From Phytomonospora endophytica (GTDB lineage: Bacteria; Actinomycetota; Actinomycetes; Mycobacteriales; Micromonosporaceae): DNA of 64,000 nucleotides. The notes beneath the pieces are model-generated. The model did no database searches and was not told where the DNA came from. It was given only the letters and a program-made list of their open reading frames with translations. Shown piece by piece: positions 7,514-14,430 of this stretch. The stretch's first letter is position 1; each line of letters begins with the position of its first letter. Where the stretch lies: the NCBI RefSeq assembly GCF_014202425.1, contig NZ_JACHGT010000005.1, positions 310,001 to 374,000 of the forward strand, written 5' to 3'. The translations under genes and the position numbers were made by a program.

Positions 7514-7999
7514 GTGAAGATCCGCTACTCCGGCCGTATCGCCCTGGCCGTCACCCTCCTGCTGACCGCGATCGCCCTGATCCTCAGCTCGATCCTCTCG
7601 GGCCCCGAACCTCTGTGGCCGGGAATCCTGATCTTCCTGGGGACGGCGGCGGTGATCGACGTGCTCGTGAACCTGCTCTTCCTCTTTTACGGGTGGGCGC
7701 GGGTCGACGAGAGCGGTGTCGCCTACCGAGGCAGGTACGGCGGTTTCGGCACCGGGCGTTTCCTCACCGAGGGCGAGAGCCTGGTGATCTCCGGCGGGCG
7801 GGTGTACGTGCGGCGGCCCGACGCGACGCTGGAGGGCACCGGCCTTCTCCGCTGGATGTGCGCCGGCCGCGACTGGCGCGGGCTGGAGCGCGCGCTCCCG
7901 AGGGTGGAGCCGGGTACGGCCACGGTCGTCGCCGCAGCCCGCCCGACCGCGGGCCGACCGCCGGAGCACCGCGGTGTCAGGCGTGCCCCATCCCGCTGA
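7514..7999 (+). CDS. Small membrane protein of unknown function
   Basis: A 161-residue protein with two hydrophobic helices at about residues 8-30 and 37-62, followed by a soluble beta-rich region (VDESGVAYRGRYGG) resembling small bacterial PH-like domains, and a basic Pro/Arg-rich tail. It starts at a GTG with AAAGG nine bases upstream. Its 3' end overlaps the convergent IclR gene by 23 bases, and the low-complexity tail may mark a late stop. I do not recognise the family. Confidence 0.6.
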   Translation: MKIRYSGRIALAVTLLLTAIALILSSILSGPEPLWPGILIFLGTAAVIDVLVNLLFLFYGWARVDESGVAYRGRYGGFGTGRFLTEGESLVISGGRVYVRRPDATLEGTGLLRWMCAGRDWRGLERALPRVEPGTATVVAAARPTAGRPPEHRGVRRAPSR

Positions 8000-8765
8000 C
8001 CAGGTCCCGGATGAGCCCGACCAGCGTCTCGACCCGCTCGCGGGTCGCGTGCCCGGTCAGCAGTGACGTGCTGACCGCGAAAGGCTGGGTCGCCTCGGGC
8101 AGCCCCGGCACCGCGACGGCCAGACAGGTGATGCCGTCGGTGGTCTCCTGGTCGTCGACGGCGTACCCGCGCTCGCGGGTCTCGCCGACCGCCTCGATCA
8201 GCGCGTCGATCCCGGTGATGGACCGGGCGGTGTAGGCGGGGAAGGGCTGGCGCTCGGTGAGCAGTTCGCGGATCCGCTCGTCGGTGTGGCCGGCGAGCAT
8301 GGCCTTGCCCAGTGCCGTGCAGGTCGCCGAGATGCGCGACCCCACCCGCGAGGTGATGCGCAGGGGCTGACGTCCACCGTGGATCGCCAGGTAGACGACG
8401 TCGCCGTCTTCGAGGGTGCCCAGCTGGAGGGTCTCGTCGATCGGGGTCATCCGTCGCGTGCGCGTCGCGAACTCGCGCACCGGGTCGAGGGCGTCGAGGT
8501 AGGCCTGCGACAGGCCGACGAGGCCGGGGCCGAGCACGAAACCGCCCGTCGCGGCCCGGACCAGCCCGGTCGAGACGAGGGCCGCGCAGACGTTGACGGT
8601 CGAGGACCGGGGAATGCCCCCGGCGGCCTTGGCCAGGTCGGCGACGGAGAGGGGGCGGCCACCCGCCTCGGCGAGCGCCTGGAGGATCGCCCCGGCGCGC
8701 AGCACGGCGGGCGCGGGGGCGGCGCTGTCCCAGCCGTTGAGTTCACGAGCTCCCATGGTCGGCAA
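7977..8765 (-). CDS. IclR-family transcriptional regulator
   Basis: A 262-residue IclR regulator. The N-terminal winged helix-turn-helix spans about residues 20-80 (AGAILQALAEAGGRPLSVADLAKAAG), followed by the linker helix and a ligand-binding GAF-like domain ending VETLVGLIRDLVSGM. It is divergent from the five-gene sugar-acid operon, and the 122-base gap carries a long perfect palindrome, so it is almost certainly the local repressor or activator. The effector is presumably a pathway intermediate such as a 2-keto-3-deoxy acid or the hydroxy-acid substrate. Confidence 0.93.
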   Translation of the reverse strand: MPTMGARELNGWDSAAPAPAVLRAGAILQALAEAGGRPLSVADLAKAAGGIPRSSTVNVCAALVSTGLVRAATGGFVLGPGLVGLSQAYLDALDPVREFATRTRRMTPIDETLQLGTLEDGDVVYLAIHGGRQPLRITSRVGSRISATCTALGKAMLAGHTDERIRELLTERQPFPAYTARSITGIDALIEAVGETRERGYAVDDQETTDGITCLAVAVPGLPEATQPFAVSTSLLTGHATRERVETLVGLIRDLVSGMGHA

Positions 8766-8782: not shown

Positions 8783-8845
8783 CAGGTTGTCAACAGATTG
8801 ACAGTCAAGCAACCTGTTGACAACCTGGGTCGTGATCATTACGGT
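8783..8845 (+). promoter_or_regulatory. Operator and promoter of the sugar-acid operon
   Basis: A perfect 14-base inverted repeat, CAGGTTGTCAACAG at 8783-8796 and CTGTTGACAACCTG at 8814-8827, encloses a third palindrome, TTGACAGTCAA at 8799-8809. Each outer arm contains the smaller palindrome GTTG-N-CAAC. The right arm contains TTGACA at 8817-8822, a -35 that pairs with TACGGT at 8840-8845 over exactly 17 bases. Bound IclR protein would therefore sit on the -35. The start codon is 42 bases past the -10 and has AAGGAG upstream. Confidence 0.75.
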
Positions 8846-8887: not shown

Positions 8888-10222
8888 ATGTCCACCCCGG
8901 CTTCCGCAGCCGCACCCGCGTCCCGCGCGGCCCCGCGTGGGGCGAGCCGGATGCGGTGGGCCATCATCTGGCTCGCCTTCGCCGGTCTCACCATCAACTA
9001 CCTCGACCGCTCCAGCATCAGCGTCGCGCTGCCCTTCATGGGCGAGGACATCCACCTCGACAAGACCCAGCAGGGACTCATCCTCGCGGCCTTCTTCTGG
9101 TCCTACGACTTCTGCCAGCTCGCGGCCGGCTGGTACGTCGACAAGGTCGGCGCCCGCCGCTCCTTCACCATCGCCGCGGTGTGGTGGTCGATCTTCACCA
9201 TGATCACCGCCGCCGTGCACAGCTTCTGGACCCTGATCGGCGCCCGGCTCCTCCTCGGCGCCGGTGAGAGTCCCGCGCCGGCGACCTCGGCGAAGGTCAC
9301 CGCGACCTGGTTCCCACAGCGCGAACGCGGCCTGGCCACCGGCATCTGGGACTCCGGCTCCCGCGTCGGCGCGGTCATCGCGATCCCCATCGTCACCCTG
9401 ATCATCCACTTCGCGGGGTGGCGCACGACCTTCATCATCATCGGCATCCTGGGCCTGGCCTGGGCGGTCGGCTGGTGGAAGGCCTACCGCGACCCCGACA
9501 AACACCGGCGGGTCAACGCCGAGGAACTCGCCTACATCCGTGAGGGCGGCGCCCGCATCGCCGCCGACGACGACGCCGAGGCGGCCAAGCTCCCGTGGCG
9601 GAGGCTGTTTCGCTACCGGACGGTCCTCGGGATGATGTTCGGCTTCTTCTGCCTCAACAGCGTCATCTACTTCTTCATCACGTTCTTCCCGACCTACCTC
9701 GTCGAGGAGCGCGACTTCAGCCTGCTCAAGCTCGGTTTCTTCGGGATGATCCCCGGCATCTGCGCCGTGCTGTCGGGCTGGCTCGGCGGCTGGCTCGCCG
9801 ACCGCGCGATCCGGCGGGGCGTGCCCGTCACCCGGGTCCGCAAGACGATCATCGTCGCCGGGATGGCGGGCGGCTCGGTCATCATCCTGGCCGTGATCGT
9901 CCCGCAGGCGTGGATGGCGCTGGCCCTGCTGTCGCTGGCGTACGCGTCCCTGACCTTCGCCGGGACCGGCATCTGGGCACTGCCCGCCGACGTCGCGCCC
10001 AGTTCGGCGCACGTCGCGTCGATCGGCGGCATCCAGAATTTCGCGTCGAACTTCGCCGGGATCCTCACGCCGATCATGGTCGGCTACCTCGCCGACGAGA
10101 CGGGTTCCTTCGTCCTGCCGTTGACGATCATCGGGGTGATCGCCCTGGTCGGCGCGCTGAACTACCTGTTCGTGATCGGCAAGATCGAGCCTCTTCCGGT
10201 GCCACGCCGGGCCGTCGGCTAG
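8888..10222 (+). CDS. MFS transporter, anion:cation (sugar-acid) symporter type
   Basis: A 444-residue major facilitator with twelve hydrophobic segments. The first-helix signature [15 protein letters not shown] is typical of the anion:cation symporter family (galactonate, glucarate and hexuronate carriers such as DgoT and ExuT). The ATG at 8888 with AAGGAG at 8876-8881 is the start; the longer open frame upstream lies in the operator. As first gene of the operon with a sugar-acid dehydratase, its likely cargo is a hydroxy-acid such as L-fuconate. No sugar dehydrogenase or lactonase is encoded beside it. Confidence 0.9.
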
Positions 10223-10253: not shown

Positions 10254-11549
10254 ATGCCACGCATCACGGCCGTCGACACGCACGATGTGCGTTTCCCGAC
10301 CTCGGCCGAGCAGGCCGGTTCGGACGCCATGCATCCCGACGGCGACTACTCGGCCGCCTACCTGACCCTGCGCACCGATCACCGCGACGGGCACGAGGGC
10401 CACGGCTTCACCTTCACGATCGGTCGCGGCAACGACATCTGCGTCGCCGCGATCGAGGCGATGGGCGCGACCCTCGTCGGCCTCGACATCGACGAGGCCT
10501 TCGCCGACATGGGCGCCTTCGCCCGCCGCCTCACCGGCGACTCGCAGTTCCGCTGGCTGGGCCCGGAGAAGGGCGTCGTGCACCTGGCCGCGGGCGCGCT
10601 CATCAACGCGATGTGGGACCTCTTCGCCCGCGTCGAGGGCAAGCCGGTCTGGAAGCTCCTGGCCGACATGACGCCCGAGCAGGTCGTCGCCCTCGTCGAC
10701 TGGCGCTACCTCTCCGACGCGCTGACTCCCGAGGAGGCCCTCGGCCTCCTGCGCGCCAAGGCCGACGGCAAGGCCGCCCGCGAGGCCGAGCTGCTCGACA
10801 CCGGCTACCCGGCCTACACGACCTCTCCGGGCTGGCTCGGCTACGACGACGAGAAGATGGTCCGGCTGGCCCGCGAGGCCGTCGCCGAGGGCTTCACGAT
10901 GATCAAGCTCAAGGTCGGCGGGAACGTCGAGGACGACGTCCGCCGCTTCCGGACCGCCCGCGCCGCCCTCGGGCCCGACATCCGCCTGGCCAGCGACGCC
11001 AACCAGAAATGGGACGTCGCCGAGGCCATCGCCTGGATGGAACGCCTCAAGGAGTTCGACCCCTACTGGATCGAGGAGCCGACCGCTCCCGACGACATCC
11101 TCGGTCACGCCGCCATCCGCCGCGGCGTCGCGCCCATCAAGGTCGCCACCGGCGAGCACGCCCACAACCGCATCCTCTTCAAGCAGCTCCTCCAGGCCGA
11201 GGCCCTCGACGTCGTCCAGATCGACGCCGCCCGCGTCGCCGGTGTCAACGAGAACGTCGCGATCCTGCTGCTGGCCGCCAAGTTCGGCGTCCCGGTCTGC
11301 CCGCACGCCGGGGGCGTGGGCCTGTGCGAGCTGGTGCAGCACCTGTCCATGTTCGACTTCATCGCCGTGTCCGGCAGCCGGGAAGGCCGCGCCATCGAGT
11401 CCGTCCCACACCTCCACGAGCACTTCGAGGACCCGATCGTGGTCGAATCGGCCGCCTACCGCGCCCCGGCGAAACCCGGCTTCAGCGCGAAGATGAAGCC
11501 CGCCTCCCTCGCCGACCACGCGTTCCCCGAGGGGAAGGTGTGGGCGTGA
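10254..11549 (+). CDS. fucD: L-fuconate dehydratase (enolase superfamily)
   Basis: A 431-residue mandelate-racemase/enolase superfamily enzyme expected to dehydrate L-fuconate (and possibly related acids) to 2-keto-3-deoxy-L-fuconate. The catalytic lysine motif KLKVGG is near residue 220, metal ligands in DANQKW and WIEEPT follow, and the His of TGEHAHNR and the [10 protein letters not shown] segment match fuconate dehydratases. It is second in the operon. Its stop overlaps the start of the SDR gene (GTGA), so the two are translationally coupled. Substrate choice among C5/C6 deoxy-sugar acids is inferred from family resemblance and neighbours. Confidence 0.88.
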
Positions 11550-12292
11550 CCGCCAAACCCCTCGCGTTCGTCACCGGCGCCGCCTCCGGCATCGGCTTCG
11601 CCACCGCCGTCCGCCTCGCCCGCGCCGGATACGACATCACCGCCGCCGACGTCGACGCCGTCGGTCTCCAGCGCACCGCCCACGCGGTCGGGGAGGCGGG
11701 CGGTACGGCGACCACCCACGCCTTCGACATCCGCGACGACACCGCCCTCACCGGGGTCCTCGACGCCACGGGCACCCCCGCCGTCCTGGCCAACATCGCC
11801 GGCGTCGGCGTCGCCGCGCCCCTGGCCGACACCAGCACCGAGGACTGGGACCGCGTCATCTCCATCAACCTCACCGCGGTCTTCACCACCTGCCGCGCGG
11901 TCATCCCGCGCATGCTCGCCGCCGGCGGCGGCAACATCGTCAACGTCGGCTCGGTCGCCGGGCTCGTCGGCGTCGGCAACCGCGCCGCCTACTGCGCCTC
12001 CAAGGGCGGCGTCATCGCCCTGACCCGCTCCATCGCCGCCGACTACGCCGCGAAGGGCATCCGCGCCAACGCGATCTGCCCGGGAACCGTCGCCAGCGAA
12101 TGGATCGGCAAGATCCTCGCCGACGCCCCCGACCCCGAGGCCACCCGCCGCGCCATGGAGGCCCGCCAGCTCGACGGGCGCATGGGCAGCCCCGAGGAGG
12201 TCGCCGCCGGGATCGCCTTCCTCGTCAGCGACGACGGCCGCTTCGTCAACGGCACCGCATTCGTCATGGACGGCGGCATGACCGCGGTCTGA
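11546..12292 (+). CDS. SDR oxidoreductase, probable 2-keto-3-deoxy-L-fuconate dehydrogenase
   Basis: A 248-residue classical short-chain dehydrogenase. The nucleotide-binding TGAASGIG motif is at the N-terminus, followed by NIAG, a catalytic Ser region (NVGSVAG), the YCASK catalytic Tyr/Lys, and a C-terminal FVMDGG. The GTG at 11546 overlaps the preceding stop and has AGGGGAAGG upstream. In the known non-phosphorylative fucose route an SDR oxidises 2-keto-3-deoxy-L-fuconate to the 2,4-diketo acid, which fits the dehydratase before it and the FAH hydrolase after it. Oxidation of the sugar itself is the alternative. Confidence 0.85.
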
Positions 12293-12322: not shown

Positions 12323-13153
12323 ATGCACCTCGTCACCTACGACGACAACGGCACCGAGGCCCTCGGCGTCCTCCGCGACGGCCGCGTCCACGCCACCACC
12401 GGCCCGGTCACCATGGCCGAGCTGATCGCCCACCCCGGCGGCCTCGACGCCCTCACCGTCGCCCCCGAACCCCTCGCCGACGACGCCCGCCTCCTGGCCC
12501 CACTGCCACGCCCCCGCAACGTCGTCTGCATCGGCCGCAACTACCGCGAGCACGCCGAGGAGCAGGGCGCCGAGACCCCCGCCGAACCCGCCGTGTTCCT
12601 CAAGACCACGACCAGCGTCGTCGGGCCCGGCCACGACATCGTCTGGGACCCCGAGTACACGGCCCAGGTCGACTACGAGGCCGAACTCGCCGTCGTCATC
12701 GGCCGCACCGCCCGGCACGTCGACGTGGCCGACGCCCTGTCCCACGTCTTCGGGTACACCTGCCTCAACGACGTCAGCGCCCGCGATCTCCAGTTCGGCG
12801 ACGTCCAATGGGCACGCGGGAAGTCCCTCGACACCTTCTGCCCGATGGGCCCGGCGATCGTGACCGCCGACGAGGTCGCCGACCCGCAGAACCTCGACGT
12901 CCGCTGCGTCCTCAACGGCACGACCGTGCAGGAGGCGAACACCTCGGTCATGTACCACTCGGTGGCCGAGATCATCGCCCACTGCTCGCGCGCCTTCACC
13001 CTGCACCCCGGCGACGTCATCGCCACCGGGACGCCCGGCGGCGTCGGCATCTTCCGGGACCCGCCGCTGCTGCTCGGCAACGGCGACGAGGTCGTCATCG
13101 AGATCGACGGCATCGGCCGCCTGGTCAACCGCTGCCGGACCGAGCGGGTCTGA
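12323..13153 (+). CDS. FAH-family hydrolase, probable 2,4-diketo-3-deoxy-L-fuconate hydrolase
   Basis: A 276-residue fumarylacetoacetate-hydrolase-family enzyme. The core includes CIGRNYREHAEE, the metal site DYEAELAVVIG (Glu/Asp ligands), and TGTPGGVG near the end. In the L-fuconate and L-rhamnonate diketo-hydrolase pathways such a protein cleaves the 2,4-diketo-3-deoxy acid to pyruvate and L-lactate. Its position straight after the dehydratase and dehydrogenase supports that step here. The start has GGGAAA six bases upstream. Confidence 0.87.
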   Translation: MHLVTYDDNGTEALGVLRDGRVHATTGPVTMAELIAHPGGLDALTVAPEPLADDARLLAPLPRPRNVVCIGRNYREHAEEQGAETPAEPAVFLKTTTSVVGPGHDIVWDPEYTAQVDYEAELAVVIGRTARHVDVADALSHVFGYTCLNDVSARDLQFGDVQWARGKSLDTFCPMGPAIVTADEVADPQNLDVRCVLNGTTVQEANTSVMYHSVAEIIAHCSRAFTLHPGDVIATGTPGGVGIFRDPPLLLGNGDEVVIEIDGIGRLVNRCRTERV

Positions 13154-13155
13154 GC

Positions 13156-14430
13156 ATGCGCGTGCGCCTCGCCTACGGCGAGCACGGGCTCGACGTCGAC
13201 CTCCCCGCCGAGCGGACCGTCGTCGTCGAGCCCGCCTACGCCGACGGTGCCGCCGATCCCGCCGCGCTCCTGCGCGACACCCTCCGCCGGCCCGTCGCCG
13301 GATCGCCCCTGCGCGAGCTCGTCCGGCCCGGTCAGACCGTCGCGATCTCGATGTGCGACGGCACCCGCGCCCAGCCGAGGCACCTGATGATCCCGGCGGT
13401 CCTCGACGAACTCAGCGGGATCGTCGACGACGCCGACGTGGTCGTCCTGGTCGCGACCGGGACGCACCGCGGGAACTCGCCCGCGGAGATCGAGGCGATG
13501 CTCGGCGCCGACGTCGCCGCGCGCGTGCGGGTCGTCAACCACGACGCGCGTGACGCGTCCTCGCTGGTCTGGTGCGGTACGCACGGCGAGGGCGTGCCCG
13601 TGTGGCTCAACCGGCACTGGGTCGAGGCGGACGTGCGGATCACGACCGGTTTCGTCGAGCCGCACTTCTTCGCCGGGTTCAGCGGCGGGCCGAAACTCGT
13701 CGCGCCCGGACTCGCCGGGCTCGACACGGTCCTCACGCTGCACGACGCCCGCCGCATCGGTCACCCGTCGGCGACCTGGGCCGTCTGCGAGGGAAACCCC
13801 GTGCACGACGACATCCGCGCGGTCGTCGCGGGGGCGGGAAACGTCGACTTCGCCTTCGACGTGCTGCTCAACCGTGAACAGCGGATCGTCGCCGCCTTCG
13901 GTGGGGAACTGTTCGCGATGCACGCCGCCGCCCGGGCCGCCGCACGGGAACTGGCGATGCGGCCCGTCGACGGTCTCTTCGACGTGGTCGTGACGACGAA
14001 CTCGGGTTTCCCGCTCGACCAGAACCTCTACCAGTCGGTGAAGGGCATGACGGCGGCCGCGACGATCGTCAAGGAGGGCGGCGTGATCGTGTGCGCCGCC
14101 GAATGCCGCGACGGGTTTCCCGACCACGGCTCCTACCGCGAGGTGCTTTCCTCGGCGGTGTCGCCGCGGGCGCTGCTGGACGAGATCACGGCCCGGCCGG
14201 ACACGCGGCCCGACCAGTGGCAGGTCCAGATGCAGGCGAAGGTGCAGACGAAGGCGCGGGTGGTCGTGCACGCCGCCGGGCTGGGGGAGGAGGAGCTGCG
14301 CGCCGCCCACCTGGACTGGACCGACGACATCGGTGCCACCGTCCGGGCCGCGCTCGACGCGGCGGGTGAGGGCGCGCGGGTGTGCGTGCTGCCGGAGGGA
14401 CCGCAGACGATTCCCTACGTGCGGGACTAG
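13156..14430 (+). CDS. larA: LarA-family nickel-pincer racemase/epimerase
   Basis: A 424-residue protein of the LarA (DUF2088) family, whose founding member racemises lactate with a nickel-pincer (NPN) cofactor bound to a lysine. Seen here are GTHRGN, the EPHFFAGFSGGPKLVAPG signature holding the histidine and the cofactor lysine, and a further His in NPVHDD. Length equals that of lactate racemase. It is the last gene of the operon, two bases after the previous stop. It may racemise the L-lactate made by the hydrolase, or epimerise the sugar acid at C2. The cofactor genes larB, larC and larE are not in the window. Confidence 0.88.
   Translation: MRVRLAYGEHGLDVDLPAERTVVVEPAYADGAADPAALLRDTLRRPVAGSPLRELVRPGQTVAISMCDGTRAQPRHLMIPAVLDELSGIVDDADVVVLVATGTHRGNSPAEIEAMLGADVAARVRVVNHDARDASSLVWCGTHGEGVPVWLNRHWVEADVRITTGFVEPHFFAGFSGGPKLVAPGLAGLDTVLTLHDARRIGHPSATWAVCEGNPVHDDIRAVVAGAGNVDFAFDVLLNREQRIVAAFGGELFAMHAAARAAARELAMRPVDGLFDVVVTTNSGFPLDQNLYQSVKGMTAAATIVKEGGVIVCAAECRDGFPDHGSYREVLSSAVSPRALLDEITARPDTRPDQWQVQMQAKVQTKARVVVHAAGLGEEELRAAHLDWTDDIGATVRAALDAAGEGARVCVLPEGPQTIPYVRD

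Follow-up and report, generated by a model that had tools for sequence, protein, structure and literature searches.

The window analysed here, a 64,000-nt stretch of the genome of Phytomonospora endophytica (NZ_JACHGT010000005.1, positions 310,001 to 374,000), carries a gene for a LarA-type racemase at the end of a group of genes for sugar-acid catabolism. The host is a soil-type actinobacterium. The locus raises the question of which 2-hydroxy acid LarA acts on in this setting. An earlier note on this DNA offered two readings, namely that LarA converts the L-lactate product of the route to D-lactate, or that it acts as a C2 epimerase on the sugar acid entering the route. Our comparisons suggest that LarA probably racemises the C3 acid released by the fuconate/galactonate route, which would be L-lactate or L-glycerate. 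The genes, residues, cofactor genes, spacing and conservation described below were observed, and the fuconate chemistry and racemase mechanism were taken from the literature.

The larA frame was translated without a stop into 424 amino acids, indicating an intact gene, and the Pfam domains Lar_N and LarA_C covered nearly the whole protein. The NCBIfam model for the lactate racemase equivalog (Ni_dep_LarA, NF033504) scored 532 bits against a curated cutoff of 460, and the scores for the other LarA family models in NCBIfam were below each cutoff. When the 8.35-Mb genome was searched for PF09861, the single match was the LarA of this operon. In the alignment with LarA of Lactiplantibacillus plantarum, the equivalents of D72, R75, H108, H174, K184, H200, Y294, Q295 and K298 were all kept. 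The residues R75, K184 and H200, which bind the nickel-pincer nucleotide (NPN), corresponded to R71, K180 and H196, and the catalytic H108 and H174 corresponded to H104 and H170. The description of a full-length LarA with the lysine and histidines of the nickel-pincer site was therefore upheld. Its sequence also resembles LarA proteins of known structure strongly.

Among the observations that the earlier note had named as refuting its reading were loss of the cofactor lysine in relatives and lack of larB, larC or larE. The lysine was invariant across all LarA relatives examined, and all three genes were present in the genome, with LarB and LarC encoded side by side on contig 6 and contig 11 carrying LarE. 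Ahead of the LarE domain, the LarE frame (L130:2012-3454) has about 200 additional residues, so that the true start may lie further in or an N-terminal part may be fused.

At positions 175, 176, 358 and 359, lactate racemases carry F, F, W and E/Q, and gluconate 2-epimerases carry E, V, A and H (PMC11770544). In the alignment, F175, F176, W358 and T359 of L. plantarum LarA1 corresponded to F171, F172, W355 and Q356 of the window LarA, which thus satisfied the first signature; the second, E, V, A, H, was absent from these aligned positions. We rejected a threonine at the fourth position, taken from an LDWT motif, because the alignment places the site at PDQWQ and hence at Q. By score and pocket signature, the protein is a predicted member of the lactate racemase (LAR) group of the LarA superfamily. 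It shares the full-length architecture, NPN residues, two histidines and F/F/W with LarA1 and the LAR enzymes LarAH42/43/51. In contrast to the window LarA, these known LAR enzymes are not set in a sugar-acid operon in the reports consulted.

The fourth pocket residue, T in LarA1, is Q here as reported for LarAH43, and Q was common to nearly all actinobacterial LarA relatives examined. The characterised LarAH43, reported with Q359, acts on glycerate with 1.14e5 M-1 s-1 and on lactate with 8.3e4 M-1 s-1. The best PDB match, LarA of Isosphaera pallida (LarAH2/SAR, 9EID, 255 bits), shares W and Q with the window LarA but has L/M in place of F/F and hence a wider pocket; it prefers lactate and 2-hydroxybutyrate, with glycerate next. 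The presence of Q in both enzymes indicates that this residue is compatible with lactate as well as glycerate and leaves the choice between the two C3 acids undecided.

The pocket bears directly on the proposal that LarA inverts C2 of the sugar acid entering the route, which would widen the substrate range or rescue C2-epimers formed by a side reaction of the dehydratase FucD. LarA shares its operon with that dehydratase, and FucD-type enzymes are described in the literature as splitting D-arabinonate between dehydration and 2-epimerisation. However, E, V, A and H are the usual pocket residues of the known sugar-acid 2-epimerases. The D-gluconate 2-epimerase GntE (LarAH15/19/20) also belongs to the LarA superfamily and has a sugar-acid substrate, but its pocket signature is missing from the window LarA, which has F/F/W/Q. 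Further, the activity of characterised LAR enzymes is already several-hundred- to two-thousand-fold lower on the 4-deoxy C4 acids. C2-epimerisation is therefore disfavoured, and we regard it as highly improbable. Action on the released product was the part of the earlier proposal that gained support, since the lactate-racemase equivalog score, the F/F/W/Q pocket and the location of relatives beside a lactate permease all favour it.

The genes from the MFS transporter to LarA all lie on the plus strand in the order MFS, 31 bp, FucD, -4 bp, SDR, 30 bp, FAH hydrolase, 2 bp, LarA (Table 1). This tight spacing argues that they form a real operon, in which LarA is the last gene and starts two bases past the hydrolase gene. 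The whole block and the divergent IclR gene were kept in another genome (G045, locus L183). The position of LarA at the end of a sugar-acid operon, as first described, was thus confirmed by both spacing and block conservation. The inverted repeat between iclR and the transporter gene is a 12-bp perfect repeat, and a similar sequence was found at the matching place in L183.

Table 1. Features of the LarA operon and its upstream region in the window, with the percentage of conservation of each gene in G045.
Feature	Position	Strand	Evidence	Conservation in G045
IclR-family regulator, divergent from operon	7977..8765	-	Pfam IclR_C and HTH_IclR	73%
Inverted repeat GGTTGTCAACAG...CTGTTGACAACC, candidate IclR operator	8785..8825		between iclR and transporter
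MFS sugar-acid transporter, D-galactonate-transporter-like	8888..10222 (start approximate)	+	TIGR00893, 344 bits, under cutoff of 395	82%
L-fuconate dehydratase FucD, enolase superfamily	10254..11549	+	2HNE, 649 bits over residues 3-430	83%
SDR, probable 2-keto-3-deoxy-L-fuconate/galactonate 4-dehydrogenase	11546..12292	+	157 bits to H. huttiense L-KDFDH (8Y4J etc.)	74%
FAH-family hydrolase, probable 2,4-diketo-3-deoxy acid hydrolase	12323..13153	+	FAA_hydrolase, 256 bits	68%
LarA, NPN-dependent short-chain 2-hydroxy-acid racemase (predicted)	13156..14430	+	424 aa; family models and aligned residues	78%

FucD aligned over its full length with the L-fuconate dehydratase of X. campestris (2HNE), and the IKLKVG, D, E, E and H motifs matched up; we take KxK, D, E, E and H to be the catalytic residues. 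In a pairwise alignment of the SDR with H. huttiense L-KDFDH, R148, T183, R214 and Q215 were kept, R192 was replaced with K and W252 with M; by this pairwise alignment only, two of the three carboxylate-binding arginines (R148 and R214) are retained. Position 252 of L-KDFDH is occupied by a hydrophobic residue, and methionine is common there. The best NCBIfam model for the hydrolase was that of 2,4-didehydro-3-deoxy-L-rhamnonate hydrolase (218 bits, under its cutoff). From these sequences we infer the substrate ranges of the dehydratase and the SDR.

A dehydratase, a 4-dehydrogenase and a hydrolase together constitute route 3 of fuconate breakdown, which yields pyruvate and L-lactate (PMC11199699, PMC6336799). 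The same three enzymes are shared with the non-phosphorylating L-fucose route 3 of Herbaspirillum (FucC/FucF/FucG) and Xanthomonas (FucD). The described route ends at L-lactate without a racemase, whereas the window operon adds LarA. Further, H. huttiense L-KDFDH accepts L-2-keto-3-deoxygalactonate, its preference for the fuconate form being only 5.3-fold.

In the route that we propose, the transporter would import an aldonate, namely L-fuconate and plausibly L-galactonate, which FucD would dehydrate before the SDR oxidises C4. Cleavage by the FAH hydrolase would then release pyruvate together with a C3 L-2-hydroxy acid, which would be L-lactate if fuconate is the substrate and L-glycerate if galactonate is. 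LarA, loaded with the nickel-pincer nucleotide made by LarB, LarC and LarE from elsewhere in the genome, would racemise this acid by proton-coupled hydride transfer between its two histidines, and the resulting D-lactate or D-glycerate would pass to the matching D-specific oxidase or kinase. We infer both the substrate of LarA in this operon and the galactonate branch. For several LarA homologues, conclusions drawn from genome context have proved misleading (PMC7583248), which counts against assigning a role to LarA by context.

LarA might also have come to lie here by chance or by horizontal transfer and serve lactate metabolism in general, with no relation to the operon; in Geodermatophilus, Pseudonocardia and Saccharopolyspora, among many relatives, LarA was found without fucD nearby. 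However, the 2-bp spacing and the conservation of the whole block in G045 argue against this, as does the recurrence of the linkage in other lineages. Genes in high-GC loci were called by codon scoring. FucD was located within 10 kb of LarA at 10 of 80 named loci, belonging to Streptomyces, Actinacidiphila and, in one case, Nocardioides. In the first two genera, LarB, LarC and LarE came next, and most loci of these two also contained an aldo-keto reductase and an amidohydrolase. The search for fucD-larA clusters in actinobacterial genomes suggested by the earlier note thus found them in three or more lineages, frequently together with larBCE, so the arrangement is not unique to the window genome. 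In clusters of one actinobacterial genus, an RbsD/FucU-type mutarotase gene (L222:8692-9117) lies between larA and larB. In the LarA cluster of Nocardioides PD653-B2, a GH127 beta-L-arabinofuranosidase-like gene (L069:5588-7444) lies between fucD and the hydrolase gene.

In a sample of the class (394 genomes), a close LarA was found in 10 genomes besides that of P. endophytica. Four of these were in full FucD-FAH-SDR-AKR-LarABC-lactonase clusters and one was in a version cut by a contig end. The others were accompanied by FAH, SDR and LarABC (one), by the lactonase type and LarBCE (one), by a glycerate kinase, a lactate permease and LarBCE (one) or by none of these (two). The SDR and/or hydrolase type adjoined LarA in 6 of the 10 orthologues, which further opposes a chance association. 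These cases are not independent, because 5 of the 10 came from one genus and at least three were apparently already among the named loci. On a quick tree with many unresolved forks, the FucD/FAH linkage was scattered and required at least nine changes, and the glycerate kinase linkage required four. When random gene placement was assumed, the rough probability of three linked lineages among about 20 was about 3e-6 for FucD and 2e-5 for glycerate kinase. By this rough estimate, the LarA-FucD linkage far exceeds chance, and we consider an unrelated neighbour quite unlikely.

If LarA acts on the released acid, it may be specifically a lactate racemase, which would convert L-lactate from L-fuconate to D-lactate, to be either exported or oxidised by a D-lactate oxidase. 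We regard this as a real possibility that falls short of an even chance. Besides the equivalog cutoff passed by LarA, the aldo-keto reductase, lactonase and FucU-type mutarotase in several related clusters point to L-fucose and hence to L-lactate. Further, D-lactate or glycolate could be oxidised by the one FAD_binding_4/FAD-oxidase_C protein of the genome. On the other hand, the genome also possesses LutABC-type genes for L-lactate oxidation (LutB scored above the model cutoff; LutA and LutC were assigned by position and size), and LutB-like proteins were kept in most LarA-bearing genomes tested, which argues that LarA does not simply substitute for L-lactate oxidation. Among the LarA-bearing genomes tested, no LutB-like protein was found in G045, G214 and G661. 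In G045, which has the same operon, there was no LutB-type match above 25 bits, and this favours a lactate racemase. In a sample of the order, LarA was present in 1 of 32 other FucD clusters and absent from 31, and LutA and/or LutB was nearby in five of the 32. Since P. endophytica has its own LutABC for L-lactate and nearly all of these FucD clusters do without LarA, LarA is dispensable for the basic route and thus accessory. A further point against a lactate racemase is that the recurrent neighbour of LarA was glycerate kinase and not D-lactate oxidase, the latter being outside the set of genes searched in the relatives.

Glycerate kinase was encoded within 10 kb of LarA at loci of Arthrobacter, Rhodococcus (two), Nakamurella, Rhodococcoides (two) and P. 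sulfidoxydans, and thus in at least three lineages; in Rhodococcus/Rhodococcoides, a lactate permease accompanied it. Further, in G343 a single 598-aa frame (L177:483-2276, minus strand) comprised an N-terminal glycerate kinase (PF02595) and a C-terminal LarB (AIRC domain). This fusion lies inside a fucD cluster in the order AKR, amidohydrolase, LarA, kinase-LarB fusion, LarC and LarE. FucD, SDR and an ABC transporter are encoded divergently from these genes, and an FAH gene was not found in this cluster. Fusion of glycerate kinase to LarB makes little sense if the kinase does not receive its substrate from LarA. The kinase neighbours and the fusion point to L-glycerate as a candidate substrate, a third reading outside the two of the earlier note and no less compatible with the data. 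LarA would then be chiefly an L-glycerate racemase that passes D-glycerate to glycerate kinase and lets the fuconate route use L-galactonate or L-galactose.

We advance this glycerate role tentatively. It is consistent with Q at position 359 as in LarAH43, with the likeness of the MFS transporter to galactonate transporters and with the acceptance of the galactonate intermediate by L-KDFDH, and the genome does encode one PF02595-class glycerate kinase. However, Q also occurs in Isosphaera LarA, which prefers lactate, and the kinase gene is about 89 kb away, outside the operon. A strict need for racemisation is also made less likely by glycerate kinases of a different class, which act on L-glycerate at 13-34% of their rate with the D form.

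Neither the enzyme family nor the pathway is novel; what appears to be new is their combination, LarA with fuconate breakdown, which gives LarA a new genomic and metabolic setting. The earlier note knew of no described fuconate operon with LarA. This agrees with our search of open papers, in which no such description was found; an unremarked entry may exist in supplementary gene-context tables. In the open literature on glycerate racemase, or on lactate racemase with glycerate kinase, the pairing was likewise not described. Placed in an operon that is conserved and yields a defined L-2-hydroxy acid, LarA acquires a concrete role that can be tested. To our knowledge, NPN-dependent racemisation of glycerate is known only as an in vitro activity, and the glycerate reading, if true, would provide a physiological role for it. 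One enzyme set would then handle L-fucose-type and L-galactose-type acids, with the kinase, and even the kinase-LarB fusion, completing the path to phosphoglycerate, and this would explain how the fuconate route deals with L-galactonate, an intermediate made by pectin-degrading fungi.

Two other loci of the P. endophytica genome encode related enzymes. On contig 4 (G000:C4:508078-510243; L219:11078-13243), an aldo-keto reductase, an amidohydrolase and a rhaM-type mutarotase are encoded as a trio about 6 kb from LutABC. This trio is likely a fucose-to-fuconate front end matching that of the relatives, located on a different contig from the operon. A second FucD paralogue (60%; G000:C4:341700-342974, L163) is surrounded by genes for UxaC, mannitol dehydrogenase and Gfo/Idh/MocA proteins and probably belongs to another sugar-acid route.
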